Source: Desulfococcus multivorans (lineage in GTDB: Bacteria; Desulfobacterota; Desulfobacteria; Desulfobacterales; Desulfococcaceae). From it: 64,000 nt of DNA. Location: assembly GCF_001854245.1 (NCBI RefSeq), contig NZ_CP015381.1, positions 708,001 through 772,000 on the forward strand, written 5' to 3'. A program made the translations under genes and the position numbers. Each line of letters starts with the position of its first letter. Position 1 is the stretch's first letter. Shown here piece by piece: positions 1,614 through 62,032 of the stretch. A model generated the notes under the pieces. That model was not told the DNA's origin. It saw only the letters and a program-made list of their open reading frames with translations, and ran no database searches.

Positions 1614-4421
1614 ATGAAGATGAAAGAAACCAGTTTGTTCGACTCGCTGCTTGAAGAGCCGCAGAAGCCCTCCGGCCCGGTGACTTGCCTCGGCATGACC
1701 TTCGAGAACGATGAGGCCCGCCGCGCCCACTTTACCGAGGAGCTGCGCAAAAAACTGCAGGACCCGGAGTTTCGCAAGATCGAAGGCTTTCCCATCGGCA
1801 GCGACGAAGACATCCTGAACCTGAGTGATCCGCCGTATTACACCGCCTGTCCGAACCCGTGGATCGCCGACTTCATCGCCGAATGGGAGGCGCAGAAGCC
1901 GAAACAGCCCGAAGATTATCATTATCACCGTGAGCCATTTGCGGCCGACGTGAGCGAGGGGAAAAACGACCCCATTTACAACGCGCACTCCTATCACACC
2001 AAGGTGCCCCACAAGGCCATCATGCGTTACATCCTCCATTACACGCAGCCGGGAGACATTGTGTTCGACGGTTTTTGCGGCACCGGGATGACAGGTGTGG
2101 CTGGTGCATTATGTGGTGAACTTGGGAGTATACGCACCCCATCTGTAAAAGATGCTTCGATTGGGGAACGAAAGGTCATTCTTTCAGACCTATCACCAAT
2201 AGCGTCCTTTATTTCCAGCAGCCTTCTGAGGCCGGTTTCCAGCCTTTCCTTCACGAAGGAAGTGAGGCGTATTTGCGGTGAATTAGAAAAGGATTATGGC
2301 GATATTTATGCCACAAATCACAATGGATGGAAGGTCCGGGATCGTAAGGCTCTTGAGCATAAAGCCTATAGTCATAGAGGAAATCAAAAGGGTCAAGTCG
2401 AGTTCACGATTTACTCTGATGCTATAAGGTGCCCGGAATGCAGTCACGAAACGACTTATTACGAAGTCGCTGTAGATGAGGCGAATGATTCTCTGTATAG
2501 CGAAATCCGATGTCCATCATGTGACTCTGCGGTGCCAGAAGGGAAATGGGAAACCGTTTTTACAAATACATACGATCCTGTTCTTCGCGAGCCAGTTAAG
2601 ATTTCAAAAATTGTCCCCGTAATAATTAACTATACGGTAGGAACAACAAGGCACGAAAAATTAGTTGATAGTGACGATTTGGCAGCAATTCAAAAGGCTG
2701 AAAAATTATTGGAAACTATCAGCCTCCCTCGCGTTGAGATGATGCATGGAAAAGAAACGCAGCGGAATCTTGGCATAGGAATTACCCATATACATCAGTT
2801 TTTCACCACGCGTGAGCACCTCTTTGTTGCGCTACTCATCGACAAAATCAATTCCGTCACTGATTCGAACATAAGATTACTGCTTATGTTCGCTTTGACA
2901 TCATCTCTGCCATATGCCTCGCGAATGCGCAGGTTCCGTGCCGACAGAAAAGGCGGCGGCCCGCTGTCAGGAACACTCTATGTAAGCTCTTTGATAACAC
3001 CTCCCCACGTTTTAAGAACATTTGAGCGCAATGCCAAGACTATTGGCGATAGCCTATCTATTCCTGTATCCAAATCACGTGGCCAGGTTGTCTCTACTCA
3101 AAGCGCTGATTGCATGCGCAACATGCCGGACAACTCAATCGATTACATATTTACCGACCCACCATTTGGACACAATTTCGATTATTCCGAGCTCAATTTT
3201 TTCTGGGAGGCATTTTTAGGCGTACTCACCAATCAGACACAAGAAGCGATTGTAAGCTCATCGCAAAAGAAAAGTGTCGAAGACTACCGTCATCTCATGG
3301 AGTCTTGCTTTCGAGAGTATTACAGGGTTTTAAAACCTGGTCATTGGATAACCGTAGAGTTCTCCAATACTAAAGCATCAGTTTGGAATGCCATCCAAAC
3401 AGCGCTAGAGCGTTGTGGTTTCGTTGTCGCGAATGTCGCTAGCCTCGATAAGAAACAGCATTCATTCAAAGCAGTGATGACACCAACGGCCGTTAAGCAA
3501 GATCTGATTATTACGGCATATAAACCCAATGGTGGTCTTGAGGAAAGATTCGAACAAGAGGCAGCAACTGAAGAAGGTGTCTGGGATTTTGTTCGCACAC
3601 ACCTCAATTATCTCCCGGTGATTAAGCAGCATGGGGGAATGCTGCAAATGATTCCAGAAAGAGATCCCCGTATTCTATTTGACCAGATGGTGGCTTATTA
3701 CGTCAGAAAAGGATACCCAGTACCCATCTCCAGCCAAGAGTTCCAAGTCGGCTTGTCACAGCGTTTCATTGATAGGGATGGGATGTATTTTCTTTCTGAG
3801 CAAGTCGCAGAATATGACCGCAAGAAAATGACATCGCAGCAACTTGTCCAAGCATCTCTTTTCGTCTCTGATGAAGCTTCAGCCATTCAGTGGCTGAGAC
3901 AAGTAATAAAAGAGAAGCCTCAGACCTATCAAGATATTCACCCTTTATTCATCAAGGAAACACAGCGTGCGTGGAACAAAAACGAGTCATCGCTAGAACT
4001 TTCGACGTTGTTGGAGCAAAATTTTTTACGCTATGACGGCAAAGGCCCGGTGCCCGAGCAGATCCACGCCTACCTCTCTACCAACTGGAAAGAGCTGCGC
4101 AACCTGCCCAAGGACGACCCAACCTTGGTCGCCAAGGCCCGCGACCGCTGGTACGTGCCCGATCCCAATAAGGCAGGCGACCTGGAGAAACTGCGCGAGA
4201 AGGCACTGCTCAAGGAGTTCGAGGAATACAAAGAGGTCAAAAAGAAACTCAAGGTCTTCCGCCTGGAAGCTGTCCGCGCCGGATTCAAGAAAGCCTGGCA
4301 GGAACGCGACTACGCCGTCATCGTCGCCGTGGCCGATAAGATCCCCAACAACGTCCTTGAAGAAGATCCCAAGCTGCTCATGTGGTACGACCAGGCAGTA
4401 ACACGAATGGGAGGCGAATAA
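1614..4421 (+). CDS. pglX: BREX type 3 DNA methyltransferase (PglXI-type)
   Basis: A 935-residue DNA methylase. The SAM-binding motif I is FDGFCGTGMTG (about residue 150) and the catalytic motif IV is TDPPFGHNFDY (about residue 515), an amino-methyltransferase (N6-A or N4-C) signature. A four-Cys cluster (CPECS near 270 and CPSCD near 300) suggests a zinc-ribbon insertion. In BREX this enzyme marks host DNA at non-palindromic sites and is needed for exclusion. It follows brxC by 85 bases, and its TAA overlaps the ATG of the next gene by one base. About bases 2100-4020 are visibly AT-richer than both ends of the gene, which suggests exchange of the specificity region. The methylase call is strong; the PglXI label rests on context. 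Confidence 0.82.
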   Translation: MKMKETSLFDSLLEEPQKPSGPVTCLGMTFENDEARRAHFTEELRKKLQDPEFRKIEGFPIGSDEDILNLSDPPYYTACPNPWIADFIAEWEAQKPKQPEDYHYHREPFAADVSEGKNDPIYNAHSYHTKVPHKAIMRYILHYTQPGDIVFDGFCGTGMTGVAGALCGELGSIRTPSVKDASIGERKVILSDLSPIASFISSSLLRPVSSLSFTKEVRRICGELEKDYGDIYATNHNGWKVRDRKALEHKAYSHRGNQKGQVEFTIYSDAIRCPECSHETTYYEVAVDEANDSLYSEIRCPSCDSAVPEGKWETVFTNTYDPVLREPVKISKIVPVIINYTVGTTRHEKLVDSDDLAAIQKAEKLLETISLPRVEMMHGKETQRNLGIGITHIHQFFTTREHLFVALLIDKINSVTDSNIRLLLMFALTSSLPYASRMRRFRADRKGGGPLSGTLYVSSLITPPHVLRTFERNAKTIGDSLSIPVSKSRGQVVSTQSADCMRNMPDNSIDYIFTDPPFGHNFDYSELNFFWEAFLGVLTNQTQEAIVSSSQKKSVEDYRHLMESCFREYYRVLKPGHWITVEFSNTKASVWNAIQTALERCGFVVANVASLDKKQHSFKAVMTPTAVKQDLIITAYKPNGGLEERFEQEAATEEGVWDFVRTHLNYLPVIKQHGGMLQMIPERDPRILFDQMVAYYVRKGYPVPISSQEFQVGLSQRFIDRDGMYFLSEQVAEYDRKKMTSQQLVQASLFVSDEASAIQWLRQVIKEKPQTYQDIHPLFIKETQRAWNKNESSLELSTLLEQNFLRYDGKGPVPEQIHAYLSTNWKELRNLPKDDPTLVAKARDRWYVPDPNKAGDLEKLREKALLKEFEEYKEVKKKLKVFRLEAVRAGFKKAWQERDYAVIVAVADKIPNNVLEEDPKLLMWYDQAVTRMGGE

Positions 4422-49469: not shown

Positions 49470-50671
49470 TCAGTTTAGCAGGGCGCGACATCATGCACTC
49501 TTGGGGAAAATTCGTCTTTACCGGCATGGGTCTTGGGCTGCTGATCGGCATCACCCTGTCTATGGCGGGGATTTATCGTGGCATGGTGGATGACGCCAAA
49601 GTCTTGCTCGATAATAGCGGTGCTGATCTCTGGGTGGTACAGAAGGACACCCTTGGTCCCTACGCTGAGTCATCAAGCCTCTACGATGATATCTGGCGTG
49701 GGATTCGCGGCATGCCGGGCGTGAATCAGGTGGCCAACATCACCTATCTCACCATGCAGGTGCGCCAGGAAGAAGGTGACGTGCGTGCCTTGGTTACCGG
49801 CGTCACTCCTGGAGAATCCGGGACACCCGGCTGGCCGCCCTATCTCGTCGCGGGACGTCAGATCACCCGGAGCCATTACGAGGCCGTCGCCGATATCGCT
49901 TCCGGATTTAAACTTGGTGAACGTATCAAGGTCCGCCGTAACCACTACACCGTAGTCGGGCTGACCAGGAGGATGGTCTCTTCCAATGGAGATCCTATGG
50001 TGTTCATTCCTCTTAAAGATGCCCAGGAAGCCCAGTTTCTCAAGGATAATGACGCCATCCGAGAGCAGCGTCGACGCACGGCCGAGAACCCTGCCTTCAA
50101 CCGGCCCGGAGTGCCCGGTCTGCTTGATGCGGTTATTGCCTCGCAAAGCACCAACCCTTACGTCAATGCAGTTTTAGTGCGGGTTGAAGCAGGTCATGAC
50201 CCGGAAGAGGTCGCTGAGTCGATCCGCCGCTGGAAGCGTTTAACCGTCTACACCCGCAGCCAGATGGAGGAGATTCTGGTTGGTAAGCTGATCGCCACCT
50301 CAGCCAGACAGATCTTCATGTTCCTGGTTATCCTTTCGATTGTCAGCTCCGCCATTGTCGCCTTCATCATCTATACCCTGACGCTCGGGAAAATTCGTGA
50401 AATTGCCGTCTTGAAACTACTCGGCACCAGGAATCGCACTATTGTCGGCCTGATCATGCAACAGTCCATCGCCCTAGGTTTGATCGGCTTTGTGGTGGGC
50501 AAGATCTCGGCAACTTTATTGATGGCGCCAATCTTTCCCAAGTATGTGCTGCTGCAACCACTCGACTCCGTTATGGGTTTTATCGCCGTGGTTATGATCT
50601 GCGTACTGTCGAGCATTATCGCCATTCGTGCCGCGCTCAGGGTCGATCCGGCCGAGGCCATAGGGGGCTGA
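49466..50671 (+). CDS. ABC transporter permease (DevC/MacB-like)
   Basis: A 401-residue permease with one N-terminal helix, a large periplasmic MacB-type domain (about residues 40-265) and three C-terminal helices in the FtsX-like domain (AFIIYTLTLGKIREIAVLKL, then LGTRNRTIVGLI). It overlaps the adaptor gene by 4 bases and lies 1 base before the ATPase gene. The substrate is unknown. Confidence 0.9.
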   Translation: MISLAGRDIMHSWGKFVFTGMGLGLLIGITLSMAGIYRGMVDDAKVLLDNSGADLWVVQKDTLGPYAESSSLYDDIWRGIRGMPGVNQVANITYLTMQVRQEEGDVRALVTGVTPGESGTPGWPPYLVAGRQITRSHYEAVADIASGFKLGERIKVRRNHYTVVGLTRRMVSSNGDPMVFIPLKDAQEAQFLKDNDAIREQRRRTAENPAFNRPGVPGLLDAVIASQSTNPYVNAVLVRVEAGHDPEEVAESIRRWKRLTVYTRSQMEEILVGKLIATSARQIFMFLVILSIVSSAIVAFIIYTLTLGKIREIAVLKLLGTRNRTIVGLIMQQSIALGLIGFVVGKISATLLMAPIFPKYVLLQPLDSVMGFIAVVMICVLSSIIAIRAALRVDPAEAIGG

Positions 50672-50672
50672 C

Positions 50673-51383
50673 ATGACTGCTAAAGGTATTCGTATCCAGG
50701 GGTTAAAAAAACGTTATGGAAGCGGCGATACCGCCGTTGATGCCCTGAAGACGGTCGACATGCACGTTGCGCCGGGTGAAGTTGTCGGACTGATAGGTCC
50801 TTCTGGATCTGGCAAAAGCACGCTCCTTAAATGTTTGGGAGCGGTGATCGAGCCGACCGCCGGGAAAATGATACTCGGAGATGACATCATTTATGACGAC
50901 GGCTGGAAGGTCAAAGATCTTCGTGCCTTGCGACGGGACCGGATCGGCTTTGTATTCCAAGCACCTTATCTGATTCCTTTCCTCGACGTTACCGACAACG
51001 TCGCTCTTCTGCCCATGCTGGCGGGAATGCCAAACGCCGAGGCGCGTAAGCGGGCAATTGAATTGTTTAAAGCGCTTGATGTGGAACATCGCGCCAAGGC
51101 CATGCCATCTCAACTCTCTGGTGGAGAACAGCAACGAGTGGCTATTGCACGTGGCCTGGTCAATCGTCCTCCGGTAATACTGGCCGATGAACCGACCGCT
51201 CCGCTTGATAGCGAGCGCGCCCTGGCTGTAATCCGGATATTGAACGATATGGCTCAAAAATTCGAGACCGCCATTATTGTCGTCACCCACGACGAAAAAA
51301 TCATTCCCACCTTTAAACGCATTTATCACATCCGTGACGGGGTGACCTATGAAGAAGAAGGTGAAGGACGTGGCTTCGAATGA
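50673..51383 (+). CDS. ABC transporter ATP-binding protein (DevA/MacB-like)
   Basis: A 236-residue ATPase: Walker [13 protein letters not shown] (about residue 40), signature [14 protein letters not shown] (about 145), Walker [14 protein letters not shown] (about 168), and the H-loop VTHDE. It powers the exporter encoded by the two preceding genes. Confidence 0.93.
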
Positions 51384-51408
51384 AGTCTACCCAAGTGAGG
51401 CCGATGAG

Positions 51409-51720
51409 ATGAAAAATAAAAACGTTCATAACATGAAAATTCCTCTGTTTGTGATTGCTCCAATTTCCCTTTTTGCCAGTTCAGTCGCCTTGGCCAATGC
51501 CATCCAAGCCTCTCGCTCTGCACGCGATCATGGAGGAATTGAATAAAAATATGCTGATAGTGACTGATGCCATTTTCAGGGAGGAGTGGGAACAGGTGGC
51601 GAAAACTGCGTCGCAGATTGCCAACCATCCACAGCCGCCGATAGCTGAGAAGATGCGCATTCTGAGTTTTGTAGGTTCCAGTGGGAACAAATTCAAAAGT
51701 TTTGACAAGCAGACACATCA
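51409..51720 (+). pseudogene. Cytochrome c-like gene, frameshifted and truncated
   Basis: A signal-peptide frame (MKIPLFVIAPISLFASSV, then ALANAIQ) shifts by one near 51508 and continues as IMEELNKNMLIVTDAIF, then ANHPQPPIAEKMRILSFVG, a pattern found in periplasmic cytochrome c-like proteins. It stops after FDKQTH, before any heme-binding CxxCH. It sits inside the efflux operon between the ATPase and the outer-membrane channel. Confidence 0.65.
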
Positions 51721-51736
51721 AACAAGGAGCATTTTT

Positions 51737-53251
51737 ATGAACAAAAATAAAATGGCCAGTTATACGTTGATCGGTTTTTATGCCATTTTACTAACAGGAT
51801 GTGCAGTAGGACCAGATTTCCAACGTCCTGTTCCTCCGGATGTGGCTGGCTACACTTCCACGCCATTGACCACAAATTTTGATGTCTCCCCCACCATGCT
51901 GGGTGATCCACAAAACATTATTAAAGGAGAACGTTTAACGAAATATTGGTGGCGAGCGATGAGTGCCGAAAAACTAGACATACTCATCGGCGAAGCCCTG
52001 GAACGTAATCCAACCCTGATGGCTGCAGAGGCTACTTTGCGTCAGGCGCAGGAACTTTTTGCGGCGAGGGCTGGTTCGACACTTTATCCACAAATAGATG
52101 GTAACTTGGGTGGCCAGCGTCAACGCTTCAATCCTGGAACATTAGGACAAACCGGAGAAGCACGGGAATTCAGTCTCTACAACGCTGGTATAGGTGTTCG
52201 ATATACATTTGACTTGGCCGGAGGTAATCGTAGGGCGTTGGAAGCTCTGGCTGCCCGGAGCGATTATCAGCAGTTCCAATTAGAAGGTGCTCGTTTGACA
52301 TTGGTGGCAAATATTGTAACAACAGCCATTACTCAGGCCAGTCTGAAAAGGCAGACTGGAATAATAGAAAACATCTTGAAGTCTCAGGAAAACCAACTGG
52401 AATTAACCCGGGAACGCATTCGTCTTGGTCATGAAGAACCGGACGATGCGTTAGCCTTGCAAACACAGTTGGAGCAAACGCGCGCTAAACTACCGCCGTT
52501 ACGTTATCAACTTCAACAAAACGACCATTTTTTGGCCGTTCTTGTGGGTAAAGCTCCAGGAGAGAGTCTGCTGCCGTCGTTTACCTTGGAGGATTTTACC
52601 CTACCGCCGGAGTTGCCGTTATTAATTCCCTCTGAACTGGTGCATGCAAGGCCGGATATTCTCGGCGCTGAAGCGTTGCTGCATGCCTCTAATGCAGAAT
52701 ACGGGGTTGCAATATCGAAACTATATCCCCAACTCAACCTTAGCGCCGATCTTGGATCGCAGGCACTGACGACCGGGGCGTTGTTCGGCGGTGGTTCCGC
52801 TGTTTGGAGTTTGGTAGGGCAACTGACACAACCCCTGTTCAATTCAGGCTTGCCCGCTGAAAAGAGAGCGGCTCTTGCCGCCTTCGATGCGGCTGCGGCA
52901 AACTACCAGTCGGTCGTTCTGGAAGCTCTTCGCAACGTAGCTGATGTATTGCGGGCATTGGAGAATGATTCAAAAAGGCTGGAGGCTCTTTCTGCCGCTG
53001 ATTTCGCTTCTGAGAAGTCTTTAGAGTCAACACAGCGTCGGTATAGACTTGGAGCAACCAGCTATTACGATCTGCTTATCGCACAACAACAACGTCTTCA
53101 GACTGAACTCGATCTAACAGAAGGCCAGGCCAAACGTCTGGTCAACACTGCTGCTTTTTACCAGGCGATGGGTGGTGGTTTATGTGACATTGCCGGAAAC
53201 GCTGGAGTTGTATCGAAGGCTCAAAGCGCAGAGCGGAAGGCCTCGCGATAG
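51737..53251 (+). CDS. Outer-membrane efflux lipoprotein (NodT/OprM-type)
   Basis: A 504-residue TolC-family channel. The N-terminal lipobox is LLTGCAVGPDF, and the protein has the duplicated TolC helical pattern (RPDILGAEALLHASNAEYGV, RYRLGATSYYDLLIAQQQ). ATG at 51737 follows AAGGAG by 7 bases. It completes the tripartite pump. About 20 residues after the usual family end (YQAMGGG) look appended and may reflect a rearranged 3' end. The next 170 bases (53252-53421) show nothing recognisable. Confidence 0.88.
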   Translation: MNKNKMASYTLIGFYAILLTGCAVGPDFQRPVPPDVAGYTSTPLTTNFDVSPTMLGDPQNIIKGERLTKYWWRAMSAEKLDILIGEALERNPTLMAAEATLRQAQELFAARAGSTLYPQIDGNLGGQRQRFNPGTLGQTGEAREFSLYNAGIGVRYTFDLAGGNRRALEALAARSDYQQFQLEGARLTLVANIVTTAITQASLKRQTGIIENILKSQENQLELTRERIRLGHEEPDDALALQTQLEQTRAKLPPLRYQLQQNDHFLAVLVGKAPGESLLPSFTLEDFTLPPELPLLIPSELVHARPDILGAEALLHASNAEYGVAISKLYPQLNLSADLGSQALTTGALFGGGSAVWSLVGQLTQPLFNSGLPAEKRAALAAFDAAAANYQSVVLEALRNVADVLRALENDSKRLEALSAADFASEKSLESTQRRYRLGATSYYDLLIAQQQRLQTELDLTEGQAKRLVNTAAFYQAMGGGLCDIAGNAGVVSKAQSAERKASR

Positions 53252-53421
53252 TTCTGGAGTATCTGCTCGCGGTACTTCTCCATCTGTTAGCGACGGCGTG
53301 AAAATGATGCAAATATGGCGGTTTAAAAATGCAGGGCGTCTCATGGGCGAGGCGAAGCCGCCAGCACCATTTTTGGCGTCGGCGGGCGGGCTAAAGGCGC
53401 AAGGCTTTCAAGCAGGCCTGG

Positions 53422-53503
53422 ACCAGCAGATCGTCCACAGCTCGAAGCGGCGCAGCGGGCGTTGAAAGCCGAGCTGATGGCCTGTCTGGGGGGCAAGACA
53501 TGA
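53422..53503 (+). pseudogene. hsdM 3'-end fragment from a second, diverged copy
   Basis: The stretch matches 24750-24831 at the end of hsdM, with many substitutions and a one-base deletion in GTCCAC-AGCTCG that shifts the frame. The last codons and the ATGA overlap with the next gene are kept. Confidence 0.7.
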
Positions 53504-53748
53504 GCGAATCGCATTTGACAACTCCGGAATATCGCGACTGGCTGAAGAACATTAAGCAGCGGTTGCGGCAGGCGCAACTGAAGACGGCTGTGCAGGTGAA
53601 TACCGCCCTGCTGACCTTTTACTGGGAGCTGGGCACGGACATTGTGGAGCGCCAGAAGTCGGCCAAATGGGGCAGCGGGTTCCTGAAGCAGTTGAGCGCC
53701 GACCTGATGGCGGAATTTCCGGACTTGGCGCAGAACACCGGACGATGA
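53500..53748 (+). pseudogene. Truncated DUF1016 gene from the second hsd copy
   Basis: About 77 residues match the DUF1016 N-terminal domain (PEYRDWLKNIKQRLRQAQL, then FYWELGTDIVERQ) but differ clearly from the gene at 24827. So it is a paralogue, not a recent duplicate. It breaks at DLAQN, 24 bases before the RAYT start. Confidence 0.8.
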
Positions 53749-53762
53749 ATGGAGGTTACCGT

Positions 53763-54563
53763 ATGACGTACAACAACCACGATGTACGGGCACGGCGCGC
53801 CGTGTCCCAACCCGAACGAAATCGCCGTTCTATTCGGTTGCACGGGTACGATTATTCCCGGGCCGGCGCGTATTTTGTGACCATTTGCACCCAGAACCGG
53901 GAATGCCTGTTCGGGGATATCGTGGCAGGACAAATGCGGTTGAATGGGGCAGGGCGAATTGTTGCCGATGAATGGATCAAAACCGCCGAAATCCGTGATG
54001 AAATTGAATTGGATGAATGGGTGGTGATGCCCAATCATTTTCACGGCATTATCGTGATTGCCGATGGTAGGGGCGACCGGCGGGTCGCCCCCATGGGTTG
54101 CACCAGGATATCGGGTGAAAAGGGCGACCGGCGGGTCGCCCCTGTGGGTTGCACCAGGATATCGGGTGAACAGGGCGACCGGCCGGTCGCCCCTACGGGC
54201 CCACAACCGCGATCCGTTGGGGCGGTCATGGCCGGATTCAAATCCGCCGCAACCAAACGCATCAACGAATTGCGCCAATCCCCCGGCACGAAATTATGGC
54301 AACGCAATTATTGGGAACACATCGTCCGCAACGAAACGGAACTGAACCGGATTCGGGAATATATCCACAACAATCCGGCGCAATGGGGAATGGACAAATT
54401 GTATCCACGTAGGGGCGACCGGCGGGTCGCCCCCATGGATGGCACCAGGATATCGTTCGAACAGGGCGACCGGCCGGTCGCCCCAACAACGGAAATTCGG
54501 GAACCATCCGCGATGTACGGGCACGGCGCACCGTGCCCGAACGAGGCGGCATGGATGATATGA
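53763..54563 (+). CDS. REP-associated tyrosine transposase (RAYT) carrying REP repeats in frame
   Basis: A 266-residue Y1/IS200-like transposase. The HUH motif is MPNHFHGIIVI (about residue 86), and the catalytic Tyr helix is NRIREYIHNNPAQW (about residue 200). GGAGG precedes the ATG at 53763. Two segments do not belong to the family: about residues 98-148, three REP palindromes in frame (17-residue units such as GDRRVAPMGCTRISGE), and the last 60 residues, two more palindromes. Both lie in phase, so the gene stays open. RAYTs nick and move REP/BIME palindromes. Activity of this enlarged version is unknown. Confidence 0.85.
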   Translation: MTYNNHDVRARRAVSQPERNRRSIRLHGYDYSRAGAYFVTICTQNRECLFGDIVAGQMRLNGAGRIVADEWIKTAEIRDEIELDEWVVMPNHFHGIIVIADGRGDRRVAPMGCTRISGEKGDRRVAPVGCTRISGEQGDRPVAPTGPQPRSVGAVMAGFKSAATKRINELRQSPGTKLWQRNYWEHIVRNETELNRIREYIHNNPAQWGMDKLYPRRGDRRVAPMDGTRISFEQGDRPVAPTTEIREPSAMYGHGAPCPNEAAWMI

Positions 54564-56413
54564 CCCGCCAACATGATGAAATTGAATTGGATGAATGGGT
54601 GGTGATGCCCAATCATTTTCACGGCATTATCGTGATTGCCGATGGTAGGGGCGACCGGCGGGTCGCCCCCATGGGTTGCACCACGGTATTGGGTGAACAG
54701 GTCGACCGGCGGGTCGCCCCCATGGGTTGCACCAGGATATCGGGTGAACAGGTCGACCGGCGGGTCGCCCCCGTGGGTTGCACCAGGATATCGTTCGAAC
54801 AGGGCGACCGGCCGGTCGCCCCAACAACGGAAATTCGGGAACCATCCGCGATGTACGGGCACGGCGCACCGTGCCCGAACGAGGCGGCATGGATGATATG
54901 ACCCGCCAACATGATGAAATTGAATTGGATGAATGGGTGGTGATGCCCAATCATTTTCACGGCATTATCGTGATTGCCGATGGTAGGGGCGACCGGCGGG
55001 TCGCCCCCATGGGTTGCACCAGGATATCGGGTGAAAAGGGCGACCGGCGGGTCGCCCCTGTGGGTTGCACCAGGATATCGGGTGAACAGGTCGACCGGCG
55101 GGTCGCCCCCATGGGTTGCACCAGGATATCGGGTGAACAGGTCGACCGGCGGGTCGCCCCCGTGGGTTGCACCAGGATATCGTTCGAACAGGGCGACCGG
55201 CGGGTCGCCCCAACAACGGAAATTCGGGAACCATCCGCGATGTACGGGCACGGCGCACCGTGCCCCAACGAGGCGGCATGGATGATATGACCCGCCAACA
55301 TGATGAAATTGAATTGGATGAATGGGTGGTGATGCCCAATCATTTTCACGGCATTATCGTGATTGCCGATGGTAGGGGCGACCGGCGGGTCGCCCCCATG
55401 GGTTGCACCAGGATATCGGGTGAACAGGTCGACCGGCGGGTCGCCCCCGTGGGTTGCACCAGGATATCGTTCGAACAGGGCGACCGGCGGGTCGCCCCAA
55501 CAACGGAAATTCGGGAACCATCCGCGATGTACGGGCACGGCGCACCGTGCCCGAACGAGGCGGCATGGATGATATGACCCGCCAACATGATGAAATTGAA
55601 TTGGATGAATGGGTGGTGATGCCCAATCATTTTCACGGCATTATCGTGATTGCCGATGGTAGGGGCGACCGGCGGGTCGCCCCCATGGGTTGCACCAGGA
55701 TATCGGGTGAACAGGTCGACCGGCGGGTCGCCCCCGTGGGTTGCACCAGGATATCGTTCGAACAGGGCGACCGGCGGGTCGCCCCAACAACGGAAATTCG
55801 GGAACCATCCGCGATGTACGGGCACGGCGCACCGTGCCCGAACGAGGCGGCATGGATGATATGACCCGCCAACATGATGAAATTGAATTGGATGAATGGG
55901 TGGTGATGCCCAATCATTTTCACGGCATTATCGTGATTGCCGATGGTAGGGGCGACCGGCGGGTCGCCCCCATGGGTTGCACCAGGATATCGGGTGAACA
56001 GGTCGACCGGCGGGTCGCCCCCGTGGGTTGCACCAGGATATCGTTCGAACAGGGCGACCGGCGGGTCGCCCCAACAACGGAAATTCGGGAACCATCCGCG
56101 ATGTACGGGCACGGCGCACCGTGCCCGAACGAGGCGGCATGGATGATATGACCCGCCAACATGATGAAATTGAATTGGATGAATGGGTGGTGATGCCCAA
56201 TCATTTTCACGGCATTATCGTGATTGCCGATGGTAGGGGCGACCGGCGGGTCGCCCCCATGGGTTGCACCAGGATATCGGGTGAACAGGTCGACCGGCGG
56301 GTCGCCCCCGTGGGTTGCACCACGGTATTGGGTGAACAGGTCGACCGGCGGGTCGCCCCCGTGGGTTGCACCACGGTATTGGGTGAACAGGGCGACCCGC
56401 CGGTCGCCCCTAC
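54541..56413 (+). repeat. Two-level tandem array of RAYT-derived units with REP palindromes
   Basis: Six direct copies follow the RAYT gene, anchored on GATGAAATTGAATTGGATG (AAATTG at 54579, 54917, 55306, 55593, 55880, 56167; 54001 in the gene). Period is 287 bp plus a whole number of 51-bp subunits (338, 389, 287, 287, 287). Each unit has 3-5 palindromes with arms GGGCGACC/GGTCGCCC and one second palindrome (GGGCACGG...CCGTGCCC). A unit joins a 5' piece of the RAYT gene to its HUH segment with the middle deleted, and ends in a stop. The last palindrome (56389-56413) is inverted relative to the others. Confidence 0.92.
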
Positions 56414-56565
56414 ATTGATTGTGCCTGCGGTTTTATGTGTGAAATCAGCGAAAATGACGTTGTTGCCGGTTGCGCGGGCCGTATCGGGATCATGCGCCGG
56501 GGCACGGAACCGGCGAACTGGGATATTCCAGAAAAATTTGATTATCGGGCTGAAGGAGATTTCGC

Positions 56566-57903
56566 TTGGACATTGCCATACTTATCGCATTGATTTTGCT
56601 CAATGGCGTTTTTGCCATGTCGGAGATCGCCCTGGTTACTGCGCGCAAGAACCGCTTGCAGCGACTGGCTGAAGACGGTGATCGCTCGGCCGCCATTGCC
56701 GTGCGCCTTGGCGAGGAGCCTACCCAGTTTCTGTCCACGGTTCAAATAGGCATTACCGCCATCGGAATCCTCAATGGTATTGTCGGTGAGGCGGCTCTTG
56801 CCGGTCCCCTCTCCGAGTTGCTTCAAAGTCTGGGGGTTGATCAAAGAATCAGCGCCATTGGAGCGACCACTATTGTGGTGGCCGGTATCACCTATTTTTC
56901 CATTGTGGTTGGTGAACTTGTTCCCAAGCGGCTTGCCCAGTTCCATGCCGAAGGGATCGCGCGGCTGATGGCCCGGCCGATAGCATTGCTGGCGCAACTG
57001 TCACGGCCATTCGTTTATCTGCTTTCGATATCGACGGATGGTATTTTGAGATTGATGGGAAAAAAGGAACTGAGCAGCGCCAACCTCACTGAAGAAGACA
57101 TTCATGCAATGCTGATGGAAGGTTCTCAGTCGGGTGTGATCGAAAAGCAAGAGCATGAAATGGTGCGGAATGTCTTTCGTCTCGATGATCGTCAAATTGC
57201 CTCTCTGATGACGCCGCGAAGCGAAATTATATACCTCGACATCGGACAGTCTCTTGAGGAAAGGCTGGAAACACTCATTGCATCAGACCACTCGCGATTT
57301 CCGGTTTGCCAAGGTGGAATGCATGAAGTGCTGGGGATCATTACGGCAAAGCGGCTACTCAAACAGAGGCTGAAAGGGGAGCCACCCGAAAAAATTGCGG
57401 AGTATCTGCTCCCTCCGGTTTATGTACCGGAATCTTTGACGGGAATGAAACTCCTGGAGCAGTTCCGGAAATCAGGCGTACAAATGGTCTTTGTCGTCGA
57501 TGAATATGGTGAAATCCTCGGCCTCATCACCCTGCAGGACCTCCTGGAAGCTCTGGCCGGTGAATTCAAACCGCGTGATCCGGAAGATGTCTGGGCCGTG
57601 CAACGTGAGGACGGCTCCTGGCTGCTGGACGGACTGATCCCCATCCCGGAACTCAAGGATCGACTTGATCTGAAATCGGTTCCCGAGGAAGAGAAGGGGC
57701 GATACCACACCCTCAGCGGCATGATGATGTGGCTGATCGGCAAGATCCCCCGCACCGGAGATGTCACCGAATGGCAGGGTTGGCGACTGGAAGTGGTCGA
57801 CCTTGATGGAAACCGGATCGACAAAGTGATGGCCAGTCGTCTGCCTGATCCCGACAGCGAGGGAGAAGCAGCGCTGCAAAGCCCTTCGAAAACATCCCGA
57901 TGA
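56566..57903 (+). CDS. CNNM/TlyC-type membrane protein (DUF21-CBS-CorC)
   Basis: A 445-residue protein: DUF21 membrane domain (residues 1-180, about four helices, VVGELVPKRLAQF), a CBS pair (about 205-325) and a CorC_HlyC domain (about 345-430). Translation begins at TTG 56566, with AAGGAG 9 bases upstream. The family is linked to Mg2+/Co2+ transport or efflux; older names call it hemolysin-like. The 152 bases between the REP array and this gene hold nothing recognised. It is a stand-alone gene. Confidence 0.88.
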   Translation: MDIAILIALILLNGVFAMSEIALVTARKNRLQRLAEDGDRSAAIAVRLGEEPTQFLSTVQIGITAIGILNGIVGEAALAGPLSELLQSLGVDQRISAIGATTIVVAGITYFSIVVGELVPKRLAQFHAEGIARLMARPIALLAQLSRPFVYLLSISTDGILRLMGKKELSSANLTEEDIHAMLMEGSQSGVIEKQEHEMVRNVFRLDDRQIASLMTPRSEIIYLDIGQSLEERLETLIASDHSRFPVCQGGMHEVLGIITAKRLLKQRLKGEPPEKIAEYLLPPVYVPESLTGMKLLEQFRKSGVQMVFVVDEYGEILGLITLQDLLEALAGEFKPRDPEDVWAVQREDGSWLLDGLIPIPELKDRLDLKSVPEEEKGRYHTLSGMMMWLIGKIPRTGDVTEWQGWRLEVVDLDGNRIDKVMASRLPDPDSEGEAALQSPSKTSR

Positions 57904-57946
57904 TGTTCTGAAACAGCCTTTGGGATAACCCGTTAACCGCCGGCAA

Positions 57947-58075
57947 TTCAATTCCGATTTTCGGAATCGAACCGGATCTACAGAGAAATTGGATCAGGGG
58001 TTGTGGCGAAGCCTTTGGTATCCGGTTTCGCTGCAAATCCAGCATCCTTGTCCGGGAACCTGGAAATCGGGAGAG
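57947..58075. repeat. Dispersed intergenic repeat, copy D; gap without clear genes
   Basis: Block 1 (57947-57974, TTCAATTCCG and TTTTCGGAATCGAACC) and block 2 (about 58028-58075, TGCAAATCCAGC, GGAAATCGGGAGAGAAAG) match the copies at 19905-20035. The rest of 57904-58476 shows no convincing gene. Confidence 0.45.
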
Positions 58076-58476
58076 AAAGGTGGATCCTCCCCCCGACGAA
58101 AACTTGGCGTTCGACTTGACTTCCTGCGGATGAACCGAAAAAATATGGTGCTCCGTTGCAGGATGAATCGAACAGCAGGAATTTTATAGAATCCTGCGTG
58201 AATTTGTGGTTTATTGAAGTTCACTTGGGGCGGCATCACCGGATAGTGACCTGATTCTCTTTGCAGACAATTTATATTCACTCTTTGAAGGTCTTCGCAG
58301 GCTTCATCTTCCTGCTTTCCTCACAATGTTATACAACCACAGGGTGAGCGAAAGTTAACGTCGAAAGTTGCGTACGGGAACCGAACTATGTCAGTGGCCA
58401 AGAACACGATACGGCTCATCAATTCCTTGCTGCTGCTACCCTGTCTGTTTCTATTTCTTACTTCACATGTGCCGGC

Positions 58477-58716
58477 TTATGTGCAGGAAATCGGGCGAAG
58501 CCACAAGGCTGTTCTGTTTACCCCTGCGATTACAGGCTGCCCGGTCTCGGTTTTCACGGTTGATAGACGAACCAATTCCAATTCTTTCGATGGCCTGGTT
58601 AAATATGTACTGATTTCCGGGAAAATCTGCTCGGATTTTAACAGGGCATATTCATATCTTCTCAGCGAATACTTCGCCGGCTTTACCCACTGTGCAGACC
58701 GAGCGGCGATTTCCAT
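58477..58716 (-). CDS. Small unrecognised protein (79 residues)
   Basis: On the minus strand, AAGGAGGT lies 7 bases before the ATG, an unusually good ribosome binding site. The 79-residue product (MEIAARSAQWVKPAKYSLRR...) is charged and has no known domain. A plus-strand frame over the same bases has no ribosome binding site. Could be a remnant of a longer gene. Confidence 0.38.
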   Translation of the reverse strand: MEIAARSAQWVKPAKYSLRRYEYALLKSEQIFPEISTYLTRPSKELELVRLSTVKTETGQPVIAGVNRTALWLRPISCT

Positions 58717-58828
58717 TCGAGCACCTCCTTTCTTTTAACCATTGCAATTCAGTGCTTTTAATCTCTGCCTACTCAAAGGCGGTCTGATGCCCGCGGTAGG
58801 CCTGCTTGAATTGTGCCAAGGAGGACAT

Positions 58829-59005
58829 ATGCGAAACAATCGCGACAAATCGCCTGATACTGCTGAAAAGACACCTTCCATGCGGCCGGAAATTGACTAC
58901 TCACCTAAGACTTTAACGCTGCGTGAACAAATCGTTTTTGGGATAAAGCTATTTGCAGTTGTTGGTGGTATTTTCCTGGTGCTTTGGCTGTTTGAAAAAA
59001 TGTAG
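58829..59005 (+). CDS. Small single-span membrane protein (58 residues)
   Basis: AAGGAGGACAT precedes the ATG. The first 30 residues are polar (ending REQ), then one membrane helix follows (IVFGIKLFAVVGGIFLVLWL) and a short tail. No family is recognised. It lies 160 bases before mgtE in the same direction and may be co-transcribed. Confidence 0.6.
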   Translation: MRNNRDKSPDTAEKTPSMRPEIDYSPKTLTLREQIVFGIKLFAVVGGIFLVLWLFEKM

Positions 59006-59041
59006 TCCGAAGATCTACCGGGACCAATTGCGACCTGTTGA

Positions 59042-59075
59042 CCTGGGGGTTCTGCCCCCAGGTTCGAATCCGGGG
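59042..59075 (+). other. Strong hairpin followed by a tRNA T-loop-like sequence
   Basis: CCTGGGGG (59042-59049) pairs with CCCCCAGG (59055-59062). The next bases, TTCGAATCCGGGG, resemble the T-arm of a tRNA with the preceding GG. Pairing of the would-be T-stem is imperfect and no complete tRNA can be folded. A tRNA 3'-end relic (integration scar) or a non-coding hairpin in the mgtE leader are both possible. Confidence 0.3.
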
Positions 59076-59165
59076 TTTGCGGCAGCTTGAATTATTGTAA
59101 CTATTGATCGCAATTCACCGGTTTGGCCGGAAGATCGATCAGCGAAGAAAGGGGTACCATATAAG

Positions 59166-60152
59166 ATGACAGAACACACAAGCCATCTGCACCGGCCGAT
59201 TATAACCTTCGCACGTAAGGACGTTGCGAAGCTACACAAAGATCTAACCGTTCAAACAGCATTAGACAAAATCAGAGAAAAAAAGGGTATGGGCGACAGA
59301 ATCGTATATTTTTACGTAGTAGACAGCAATGATCGGTTGGTGGGTGTTGTGCCGACCCGGCGTTTACTCGGTTCTCAACTGGAGCAACGACTTTCCGAAG
59401 TCATGATAGGTCCGGTGATCACAATTCCGAAAGATGCTAGCGTGTTAGATGCCTACGAGTTTTTCATGGTGCATAAGTTGCTGGCTTTTCCAGTGGTGGA
59501 TGAACATAAGCATATATTGGGTGTGGTGGACGTCGGTATGTTTACGGACGAGGCGTTCGATGTGGCCGATCAGACCAGCATGGACCGGGTTTTTGAGACA
59601 ATCGGCTTTCGCCTTATGCAGGTGCGAGATGTATCACCGCTGCGTGCGTTTCGGTTTCGATTTCCATGGCTACTCGCAACCATTACCAGCGGTACGATAT
59701 GCGCTCTGCTTGCCGGTGTTTACGAGATGACACTGGCCAAGAGCTTGATCCTGGCGTTTTTTCTCACCTTGGTTCTGGGGCTGGGCGAAAGTGTCAGCAT
59801 GCAGTCCATGACAGTCACCATCCAAGGGTTGAGATCGGAAATACCGACTCTCGGTTGGTATCTACGGACGCTCCGACGCGAGGTGGGTGCGGCTCTTTTG
59901 CTGGGTACGGCATGTGGCCTTATAGTGAGCGTGATCGCATGGATTTGGCGCGGAGATCCGTTGGCGTCCGTTACCATCGGATCCAGCATTCTGTTGACGC
60001 TTTGCGCTGCCAGCTTTTTTGGGCTGAGCGTTCCGTCACTTTTACACAAGGTGAAGCTCGATCTTAAAATTGCTGCCGGTCCGGTGACCTTGGCCATGAC
60101 CGATATTTCCACGCTTCTTATTTACTTCAGCATCGCCGAAGCGTTGCTGTGA
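59166..60152 (+). CDS. mgtE: Short MgtE-type magnesium transporter
   Basis: A 328-residue MgtE. A CBS pair (about residues 20-140) leads into the five-helix channel domain (about 165-328), with the family end pattern AGPVTLAMTDISTLLIYF. The N-terminal Mg2+-sensing domain of full-length MgtE (about 450 residues) is missing, so gating may differ. The 160-base leader contains a strong hairpin (59042) that could be regulatory. Confidence 0.85.
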   Translation: MTEHTSHLHRPIITFARKDVAKLHKDLTVQTALDKIREKKGMGDRIVYFYVVDSNDRLVGVVPTRRLLGSQLEQRLSEVMIGPVITIPKDASVLDAYEFFMVHKLLAFPVVDEHKHILGVVDVGMFTDEAFDVADQTSMDRVFETIGFRLMQVRDVSPLRAFRFRFPWLLATITSGTICALLAGVYEMTLAKSLILAFFLTLVLGLGESVSMQSMTVTIQGLRSEIPTLGWYLRTLRREVGAALLLGTACGLIVSVIAWIWRGDPLASVTIGSSILLTLCAASFFGLSVPSLLHKVKLDLKIAAGPVTLAMTDISTLLIYFSIAEALL

Positions 60153-60215
60153 GGTGACCGGGCATATACCTGGAATAGGTGACCGTAACGGGTGATCCCA
60201 AACGGGCGGCCGTGT

Positions 60216-60290
60216 AACGGAACGGAATTGAATCGTATTTGGCAATATTTCCACAAAAACCCGGCACAGTGGGAATTGGATAAATTGTTC
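60216..60290 (+). pseudogene. RAYT C-terminal fragment
   Basis: NGTELNRIWQYFHKNPAQW, then ELDKL, matches the Tyr-helix segment of the RAYT at 53763 (NETELNRIREYIHNNPAQW). The rest of a RAYT gene is absent. The bases up to 60560 hold no clear gene. Confidence 0.75.
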
Positions 60291-60561
60291 AACAATGGGC
60301 AGACACAGAGGTATGCCCCTGGAGATGTAAATGGGGGGAACCGACAACCGAATGCGGCACGGCGGGTCGATGTTTTGGTATTAGAGGATGCGTTTTGTCA
60401 ATCAATCATGATATGGGTCGGTAAGACCGTTGCCGCAAGGGTACCGCCCATACCGATGGGGTTGCCTTGGTGAACTGCGGCAACACTGTGACGGAAGCCG
60501 TGACAGCCGCAAAAGCATCGCGACAAACCGTAATGGGACAGCTGGACAGGAGAACGGGACC

Positions 60562-61950
60562 ATGCTCAAACAGTTGCGAATACAAAACTTCAAAGGCTGG
60601 AAGGATACCGGCACCATTCGCATGGCTCCTATTACCCTGTTTTTCGGCGCCAACAGCTCAGGCAAATCCAGCATCGGACAATTTCTGATGATGCTGAAGC
60701 AGACCGTCGAATCCTCCGACCGGAAAGCGGTCTTTTACCCCGGCGGGAGGAACTCGGCGGTTCGGCTGGGCTCCTATCAGGATATGGTTTTCCACCGTGA
60801 TCCGGCAAACAGGATCGCTTTTGAATATCGATGGTCGCTCCAGGATGCCCTGAAATTCAAGGATCCCGTATCGGGCCGGAACTATTCCGGAGACGCGTTG
60901 GCCTTTCAGGCGAAAGTCGGCCTGGATGACAGGGATCAACACACGCTGGTGCTATACCGGTTGAATTATGATCTGCTGGAACGGGATGCATCGAAACTTT
61001 CCATAGGCATGGAGAGAAAACCGGAAGCGAAGTCCGAGTACAGGGTGGAGGCCACGAACTATGTCCTGAAACGGAAACAAGGGCGCGTCTGGTATCCCGG
61101 CGCGCCGGTTCGTTTTTACGGGTTTCCGGATGAAGTGGCGGCCTATCATCAGAACGCCGACTTTGTTCAGGCGCTGAATCTGAGGAGCGAGAAACTGTTT
61201 CGCTCGCTTTCCTATCTGGGGCCGCTTCGAACCCGGGCCGAGCGTCTGTATTCCTGGACCGGCATCGAACCGGAAAGCGTCGGGTATGCAGGTGAGAACA
61301 CAGTGGCGGCGGCATTGGCGGCCCGGACCCGGAAGATCAGCCTGGGGCGTCGGCGGCCCGCCAGGCCTTTTGAGGAGATCATTGCGCTGAAGCTCAAGGA
61401 GATGGGGCTGATCGAAGCGTTCAACGTAAACCGGATTTCCGATCAGCGGCAGGAGTATGAGGTCAAGGTCCGGACCAGGGGGTCAAAGGACTGGGTGGAT
61501 CTTCCTGATGTCGGATTCGGGATATCTCAGGTATTGCCGGTTCTCGTGCAGTGTTTCCATGCGCCGCCCGGGGCGATCATTCTTATGGAGCAGCCGGAGA
61601 TTCATCTCCATCCGAGCGCGCAGTCCGCCCTGGCCGATGTGATGATCGACGTCATCAATTCTCGCGAAAATGGAGCCGACAGGGGTATACAGCTGATTAT
61701 CGAAACGCATTCGGAACATTTTCTTCGGAGATTACAGCGGCGAATTGCCGAGGGCGGGGTGCCCCAGGATAAGGTTGCAGCCTATTTTGCCAATATCACC
61801 AGAATGCCGGCCACACTCGAACCTCTGCAGCTTGACCTCTTTGGAAATATTCAGAACTGGCCGAAAAATTTCTTTGGCGATGAGATGGAGGATATTGCCG
61901 AACTGGCCAAAGCCGCCATGGAAAAACGGATGCCGAGACGATCTGAATAG
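60562..61950 (+). CDS. AAA family ATPase, DUF3696 type
   Basis: A 462-residue ABC-type ATPase. Walker A is FGANSSGKSSIGQ (about residue 28), Walker B is LMEQPEIHLHPSAQ (about 348), the H-loop is ETHSEHFL (about 385), and the C-terminal DUF3696 segment is QLDLFGNIQNWPKNFFGDEM. The ATG at 60562 follows AGGAGAACGGG. DUF3696 ATPases are OLD/RecF-like and often come with a defence partner; none is seen next to it, so its role is open. Confidence 0.85.
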   Translation: MLKQLRIQNFKGWKDTGTIRMAPITLFFGANSSGKSSIGQFLMMLKQTVESSDRKAVFYPGGRNSAVRLGSYQDMVFHRDPANRIAFEYRWSLQDALKFKDPVSGRNYSGDALAFQAKVGLDDRDQHTLVLYRLNYDLLERDASKLSIGMERKPEAKSEYRVEATNYVLKRKQGRVWYPGAPVRFYGFPDEVAAYHQNADFVQALNLRSEKLFRSLSYLGPLRTRAERLYSWTGIEPESVGYAGENTVAAALAARTRKISLGRRRPARPFEEIIALKLKEMGLIEAFNVNRISDQRQEYEVKVRTRGSKDWVDLPDVGFGISQVLPVLVQCFHAPPGAIILMEQPEIHLHPSAQSALADVMIDVINSRENGADRGIQLIIETHSEHFLRRLQRRIAEGGVPQDKVAAYFANITRMPATLEPLQLDLFGNIQNWPKNFFGDEMEDIAELAKAAMEKRMPRRSE

Positions 61951-62032
61951 GCGGCGGCATCCGGATGTTACACATAAGGTTCAGAAGTCGAGGGATAAAC
62001 AGGACCTTTGACAGCAACAGCGGAGTGTGGTT

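Follow-up and report, generated by a model that had tools for sequence, protein, structure and literature searches.

RAYTs are regarded as domesticated transposases, and we know of no settled account of how RAYT-linked REP arrays are formed. The described systems that come closest to the Desulfococcus multivorans locus analysed here share some of its features. In TnpAREP subclass 2.4, in-frame REPs between the HuH and Tyr motifs are already published, together with double-foot GTAG...CTAC REPs and REPs flanking the gene (Quentin et al. 2018, PMC6006769); our locus has all of these features and, unlike the subclass as described there, repeats the HUH/REP/tail segment of its own gene in tandem. 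We therefore no longer count in-frame REPs in a RAYT gene as a novelty of this locus. RAYT-adjacent BIMEs likewise form tandem modules beside the gene with rayt 3' sequence between REPs, and four cases of rayt 3' ends captured in BIMEs have been reported (Nunvar et al. 2010, PMC2817692). In the BIMEs of that report REPs alternate in orientation and it is the 3' end that is captured, whereas here 26/27 palindromes are direct or symmetric, every unit contains the HUH coding segment and derives from the gene by deletion.

The REPIN clusters of P. fluorescens SBW25 (Bertels and Rainey 2011, PMC3116915) are similar in that tandem REP units with their flanks adjoin RAYT genes, but the repeated unit as described there holds no transposase coding segment, and the REPs are scattered across the whole genome. 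GTAG-tagged REPs (Di Nocera et al. 2013, PMC3733652) share the GTAG foot, the location of REPs inside coding regions and the proximity to RAYTs; that account names 5'/3' overlaps and does not name RAYT genes as carrying internal REPs. Open-licence papers yielded nothing on HUH-segment arrays. What is new here is the nature of the repeated unit, which derives by deletion from the coding sequence of the RAYT itself.

The RAYT gene and its REP palindromes

The window, i.e. the whole stretch of 64,000 nucleotides that was analysed, corresponds to positions 708001-772000 of contig NZ_CP015381.1 from a single-contig genome (4.455 Mb, 99.99% complete); coordinates are those of the window, and features lie on the forward strand unless stated otherwise. 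The RAYT/TnpAREP gene (53763-54563) encodes 266 aa in an uninterrupted frame, with the HUH residues H92/H94 and the catalytic Y200 present; N91, H92 and H94 are invariant and Y200 nearly invariant among 35 aligned proteins. When the longer ORF starting at 53667 was scanned, Pfam Y1_Tnp scored 28.6 bits against a cut-off of 23, and NCBIfam NF047646 (REP-associated tyrosine transposase) matched in two stretches with 73.2 bits, below its cut-off of 80, which is also missed by two other RAYT loci of the genome, L058 (71.2) and L059 (39.7). Membership in the RAYT/TnpAREP family is thus based on motif, fold and REPs, not on the NF047646 model. The sole phmmer match against PDB at E 0.01 was 4er8_A, and the best solved match found by Foldseek with the AlphaFold model was again 4er8, a TnpAREP with a REP hairpin. 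The AlphaFold (AF2) model has a mean pLDDT of 68.2, with 103/266 residues reaching 90 and four stretches (1-16, 18-29, 104-147 and 233-266) falling below 50.

The locus is a REPtron, a RAYT gene accompanied by its own REP palindromes both within the gene and at its 3' end. The intragenic REP cluster (54067-54196, GTAG...CTAC) consists of three palindromes 51 bp apart and lies in frame between the HUH and Tyr motifs, as in TnpAREP subclass 2.4; it encodes approximately residues 102-145, the stretch without confident structure (pLDDT <50 over 104-147). The 3' REP pair (54409-54483), two palindromes 51 bp apart that follow the NPAQW motif, encodes approximately residues 216-240 and partly overlaps the low-confidence C-terminal stretch. 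It is followed by the gene 3' tail (54484-54573), which carries a second-type palindrome and a stop/start overlap. A palindrome with the second REP core (GGGCACGG...; repeat family D3) is located inside the 5' end of the gene (53774-53811). As for feet of the GT[AG]G form in the REP flanks, GTAG is found at 54409 in the 3' pair and an inverted CTAC extends to 56413, while the 5' palindrome reads GTACGGGC, a variant foot, and the 5' flank conforms only loosely.

A two-level array of RAYT deletion derivatives

The array that adjoins the intact RAYT extends from 54574 to 56413; an earlier preliminary description had it begin at 54541, which is not where the repetition starts. It had also spoken of six units with 3-5 palindromes each and lengths differing by multiples of 51 bp. 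Five units are full: unit 1 (54574-54911, 338 bp), unit 2 (54912-55300, 389 bp) and the identical units 3 (55301-55587), 4 (55588-55874) and 5 (55875-56161) of 287 bp each; the sixth (56162-56413) is truncated to 252 bp and lacks the tail. Palindrome counts of 4, 5, 3, 3, 3 and 4 in units 1 to 6 agree with the proposed range, and the 51-bp rule holds for the unit spacings (338, 389, 287, 287 and 287 bp, all equal to 287 + n x 51) but not for the cut sixth unit. The last palindrome lies inverted, on the reverse strand (56390-56413; core 56390-56409, foot CTAC 56410-56413), as seen by mapping of inverted repeats, and the last base of its foot, 56413, is also the last base of recognisable RAYT/REP sequence.

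Together the gene and the array hold 27 palindromes between 54071 and 56409 (~2.35 kb), in line with the approximate count made from the letters; five of them are inside the gene. No such palindrome arose in 100 dinucleotide shuffles of the window, and the 4.46-Mb genome contains no copy outside the locus at <=1 mismatch. The high dispersed copy number usual for a REP family is therefore absent, and a dispersed REP population in this genome was rejected, all 27 copies being local. Within a cluster the palindromes recur every 51 bp, that is, a 20-bp palindrome plus a 31-bp spacer. Their cores are asymmetric in one direction in 23 cases, symmetric in three and opposite in one (the last, at 56390), which is not the alternating orientation of BIME modules. 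A CRISPR-like reading was rejected because the intervals between the palindromes are themselves repeated. Rfam at gathering thresholds gave no match over 50000-62000, phage collections contained no match, and plasmid collections yielded one weak match (101 bp at 73%).

Each full unit starts with the HUH segment (from 53996 in the gene), continues through a palindrome run and ends with the gene 3' tail (54484-54573), leaving out the part of the gene that encodes the catalytic Tyr. Between the gene and all six units the HUH segment agrees at 95/95 bases, and the five full-unit copies of the tail differ by 0-1 mismatches in 90 nt. Of the fusion originally proposed, between a RAYT 5' piece and the HUH segment, the second component stands; the '5' piece' is the gene 3' tail, with which the gene 5' end has just a 38-nt palindrome-bearing stretch in common (87-89%; family D3). 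All five full units share a hybrid spacer, of in-gene type on the left and of 3'-end type, ...ATATCGTTCGAACA, on the right (at 54774, 55163, 55450, 55737 and 56024), and the identity of the gene tail to unit 1 starts at 54442, within the 3' spacer. Since the hybrid spacer is common to these units, the Tyr segment was most likely lost once, before amplification, within roughly 14 shared bases. The shared junction suggests a single founder that was then amplified, and the lack of any difference among units 3-5 speaks for amplification or homogenisation in the recent past. The founding joint, 53996/54574 (CCAACA joined to TGATG), is located away from a REP foot, has no CT nearby on either strand and follows CA.

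The unit length, which is not a multiple of three, had been taken to mean that the array is not coding. This does not follow, because every unit is open and the stop of each frame overlaps the ATG of the next unit in a module ATGGATGATATGA (54551-54563 at the gene end, with further copies beginning at 54889, 55278, 55565, 55852 and 56139); the units are 2 mod 3 long for this very reason. Each unit frame starts in the module in which the preceding frame stops, giving ORFs of 116, 133, 99, 99 and 99 aa in units 1-5 and one of 177 aa in the last unit that runs past the array. The corresponding peptides comprise the HUH segment without the Tyr helix. In the Desulfobulbus elongatus locus L067 and in several other loci the RAYT end carries GGAGGCATGGATGGTATGA, and the stop codon of the gene overlaps an ATG that comes after it; the overlap is thus inherited from the RAYT end, and the open frames are no evidence of use.

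Other RAYT loci, relatives and gene neighbourhood

Within the same genome, locus L058 has the module order N-Y-Y-N-Y, cut at REPs, in which the first N is a shortened 201-bp copy and the Y modules (259, 259 and 261 bp) are 93-96% alike. L058 looks like the opposite product, with an extra Tyr segment bounded by REPs, and the array like the deletion product. Loss at the array and gain at L058 are the pair expected from unequal REP-to-REP exchange, and we infer that one process lies behind both. The REP cores of these further RAYT loci differ from that of the array. The L058 core, GGGCGGTTCGCGAACCGCCC, is found 5' of the gene, in the loop between the HUH and Tyr segments and at the 3' end; L059 and the degenerate L060 share the core GGGCACGGCGCGCCGTGCCC, which lies in the loop and on one side of the gene. 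A genome scan for GTAGGGGC-N12-GCCCCTAC at <=1 mismatch returned eight sites. Seven belong to RAYT loci (near 482-483 kb, 2.141 Mb and 2.263 Mb), and the eighth, at 513 kb, adjoins a degenerate match to a RAYT. Separately, the window contains a RAYT 3' remnant (TELNRIW...NPAQWELDKL, 60192-60473) ~4 kb downstream of the array, and locus L063 (287-673; genome about 461.6-462.0 kb) has three 129-bp tandem repeats with palindrome AGGGCGGACACRCAGGTCCGCCCCTAC, no RAYT being seen within the 1.3 kb examined there.

The RAYT of Desulfobulbus elongatus L067 is 81% identical in the 35-protein alignment. It has one loop palindrome, GTAGGGGCGACCGGCCGGTCGCCCCTAC, compared with three in the window; the two loops differ by exactly 102 bp, i.e. 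two 51-bp repeats, in frame. At its 3' end L067 has one imperfect palindrome and no array. We further compared 80 RAYT loci from other species, the best 80 of 523 relatives ranked by likeness to the query. The hairpin of the loop beats all 20 shuffles in 67/80 of these loci and does not exceed them in 13/80, a rate that is not unbiased because the query loop itself encodes a REP; in 69 of the 80 it is stronger than any gene-body window of the same length. Tandem arrays (period >=20, span >=60) account for 3.7% of the sequence up to 700 bp from the gene and for 0.34% of the sequence beyond, with 14/80 loci having one near (<=700 bp) and 3/80 far.

A gene stretch of >=60 bp recurs within the locus in 9/80 cases. 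In L073, L081, L115, L127 and L128 the repeated stretch takes in part or all of the loop REP; in L134 the match is inverted and lies within the loop, in L076 the gene's own loop is matched in inverted orientation, and in L084 and L103 the recurrence reflects a second RAYT copy alongside. L115 is the closest parallel, a single deletion derivative in which an illegitimate joint likewise precedes the HUH segment by a short distance: downstream of the full RAYT, at 3655-3801, a second gene start is fused to an HUH segment (106 bp, 94%) plus a REP, and the contig ends there. As observations in their own right, L127 2866-2989 matches in-gene 3265-3389 from GTAG to CTAC (125 nt, 90%), which gives the impression of an in-frame insertion of a REP pair into the gene; in L073 (1958-2412) and L128 (3058-4008) an in-gene insertion matches a REP pair outside the gene; and a RAYT of the family relative G005 is flanked by two arrays that share a 166-bp period (L198, 767-1130 and 1804-2241).

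The search for similar arrays elsewhere that the preliminary description had proposed thus returned the rearranged L058, the single L115 derivative and some tandem array in 14/80 loci, but no second multi-unit HUH-segment array among the 80 loci, the 95 relatives and 29 further loci of the class (the L115 contig ending after one copy). A complete lack of similar arrays, which would have refuted the preliminary description in favour of a one-off duplication, is thus not what we see, although the parallels are loose. No whole-unit match was found among the 95 relatives, the best hit covering 97/288 bases. The class search gave a match in at least 83/291 genomes, our own included; among the 29 further class loci, one has a tandem array and none has repeated RAYT segments. 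When the palindrome pattern was run on 20 of 96 genomes, an order-level relative, G049, showed 91 exact copies across many contigs, a dispersed family that can be set against the local palindromes here when asking why some REPs spread and others do not. No syntenic ancestor was found in the genus or family, where the corC neighbour matches at just 24-32% in five genomes; G001, of the same genus, lacks an exact palindrome as well as, at E 1e-8, any match to the RAYT, and its one palindrome-like match covers 25 bases at 96%.

As for the gene neighbourhood, a DUF1016_N fragment of 82 aa (53500-53748; positions 1-61 of the 137-position model) lies just upstream of the RAYT. RAYTs of this type can be extra cistrons in type I restriction-modification operons (L067 1-6194; L165 600-2500; L058 229-1367; window 53500-54563). 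In Desulfobulbus elongatus the order is hsdM, rhuM, an apparent hsdS remnant (by eye), RAYT, AlbA/Schlafen and hsdR, with a stop/start overlap after the RAYT. Using the L067 proteins and the DUF1016 fragment of the window as tblastn queries, we found a restriction-type neighbour in 19/80 RAYT loci (L067 included; the best 80 of 523 relatives) and in 8/35 further loci. The RAYT stop forms an ATGA overlap in 28/79 loci, and open-licence papers yielded nothing on RAYTs inside restriction operons.

How the array may have arisen

We consider it probable, at roughly 70% and for this one genome, that recombination between REPs followed by unequal exchange built the array from the in-gene and 3' REPs. 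One gene with two nearby clusters of near-identical 51-bp palindrome-spacer repeats would provide the substrate for exchange. Recombination or slippage between the in-gene and the 3' cluster, together with one illegitimate tandem joint (tail to 53996), would give a founder without the Tyr segment; unequal exchange would then amplify the founder unit, slippage of single 51-bp repeats would vary the number of palindromes, and the array would keep open, coupled frames since the gene's coding tail is copied in it. The early proposal that RAYT deletion derivatives were amplified at two scales is borne out by the 102-bp (2 x 51) difference from L067 and by the one deletion junction in the five full units. 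In this light the array looks less like a new system than like a known kind of element that was rearranged through its repeats. Two features speak against this origin: the founding joint, 53996/54574, is not explained by REP homology, and the last recognisable base of the element coincides with the end of a REP foot (56413), an outcome that RAYT cleavage could produce too. Against generality of the process, a single multi-unit HUH-segment array was seen, with repeated RAYT segments in 0/29 further class loci.

That same terminal foot is one of the points in favour of amplification catalysed by the RAYT itself, in which nicking at REPs, circle joining and rolling-circle copying would lay down the tandem units, and which we regard as unlikely, yet the strongest competitor. 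Rolling-circle growth of BIMEs has been proposed (Nunvar et al. 2010, PMC2817692). The gene is intact in both HUH and Tyr, its REPs carry GTAG/CTAC feet, and tandem arrays are concentrated near RAYTs in the 80 loci. In vitro, E. coli TnpAREP cleaves at CT beside REPs, and CA, the dinucleotide that the founding joint follows, is also cut by Marinomonas TnpAREP (PMC8266576). However, the novel joint lies off the REP feet, with no CT nearby on either strand, the palindrome has not spread beyond the locus, and REP homology alone accounts for L058, a comparable product of this genome. The earlier view that the process was driven by the neighbouring transposase is not borne out, given a founding joint off the REP foot and 27 local palindromes as against 91 dispersed ones in G049.

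It is very improbable that the array is a selected element, acting through transcript folding or as a string of coupled HUH-only mini-proteins that would hinder the transposase. The preliminary description had raised a possible role in transcript folding or chromosomal structure. The unit RNA does fold better than 200/200 shuffles (z -4.54), the six frames are open with starts overlapping the preceding stops, and 51 bp equal 17 codons, so that changes in palindrome number keep the frame. Yet inverted repeats alone give such folding, the openness is inherited, the units are too alike for a selection test, the frames are without the gene segment bearing the Tyr helix, and none of the 95 relatives has a whole-unit match. 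Fainter still is the prospect that the in-frame REPs make this a self-rearranging transposase gene, in which exchange between the in-gene and 3' REPs would delete or duplicate the catalytic-Tyr segment and the amplified deletion product, as translationally coupled HUH-only mini-ORFs, would restrain the parent transposase or protect the operon around it. Least probable of all is an assembly artefact with a wrong unit copy number: identical 287-bp repeats are difficult for short reads, but the genome is a single contig of 99.99% completeness, and units 1, 2 and 6 can be told apart from units 3-5, and from one another, by palindrome number or spacers, giving at least four distinct units and limiting the doubt to the number of identical copies 3-5.

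Returning to recombination between REPs as the preferred origin, the array is most likely a passive by-product without a selected function. Our findings suggest that palindromes inside the gene make a RAYT prone to rearrangement, and the array and L058 together provide a means of telling whether such arrays stem from host recombination or from transposase catalysis.
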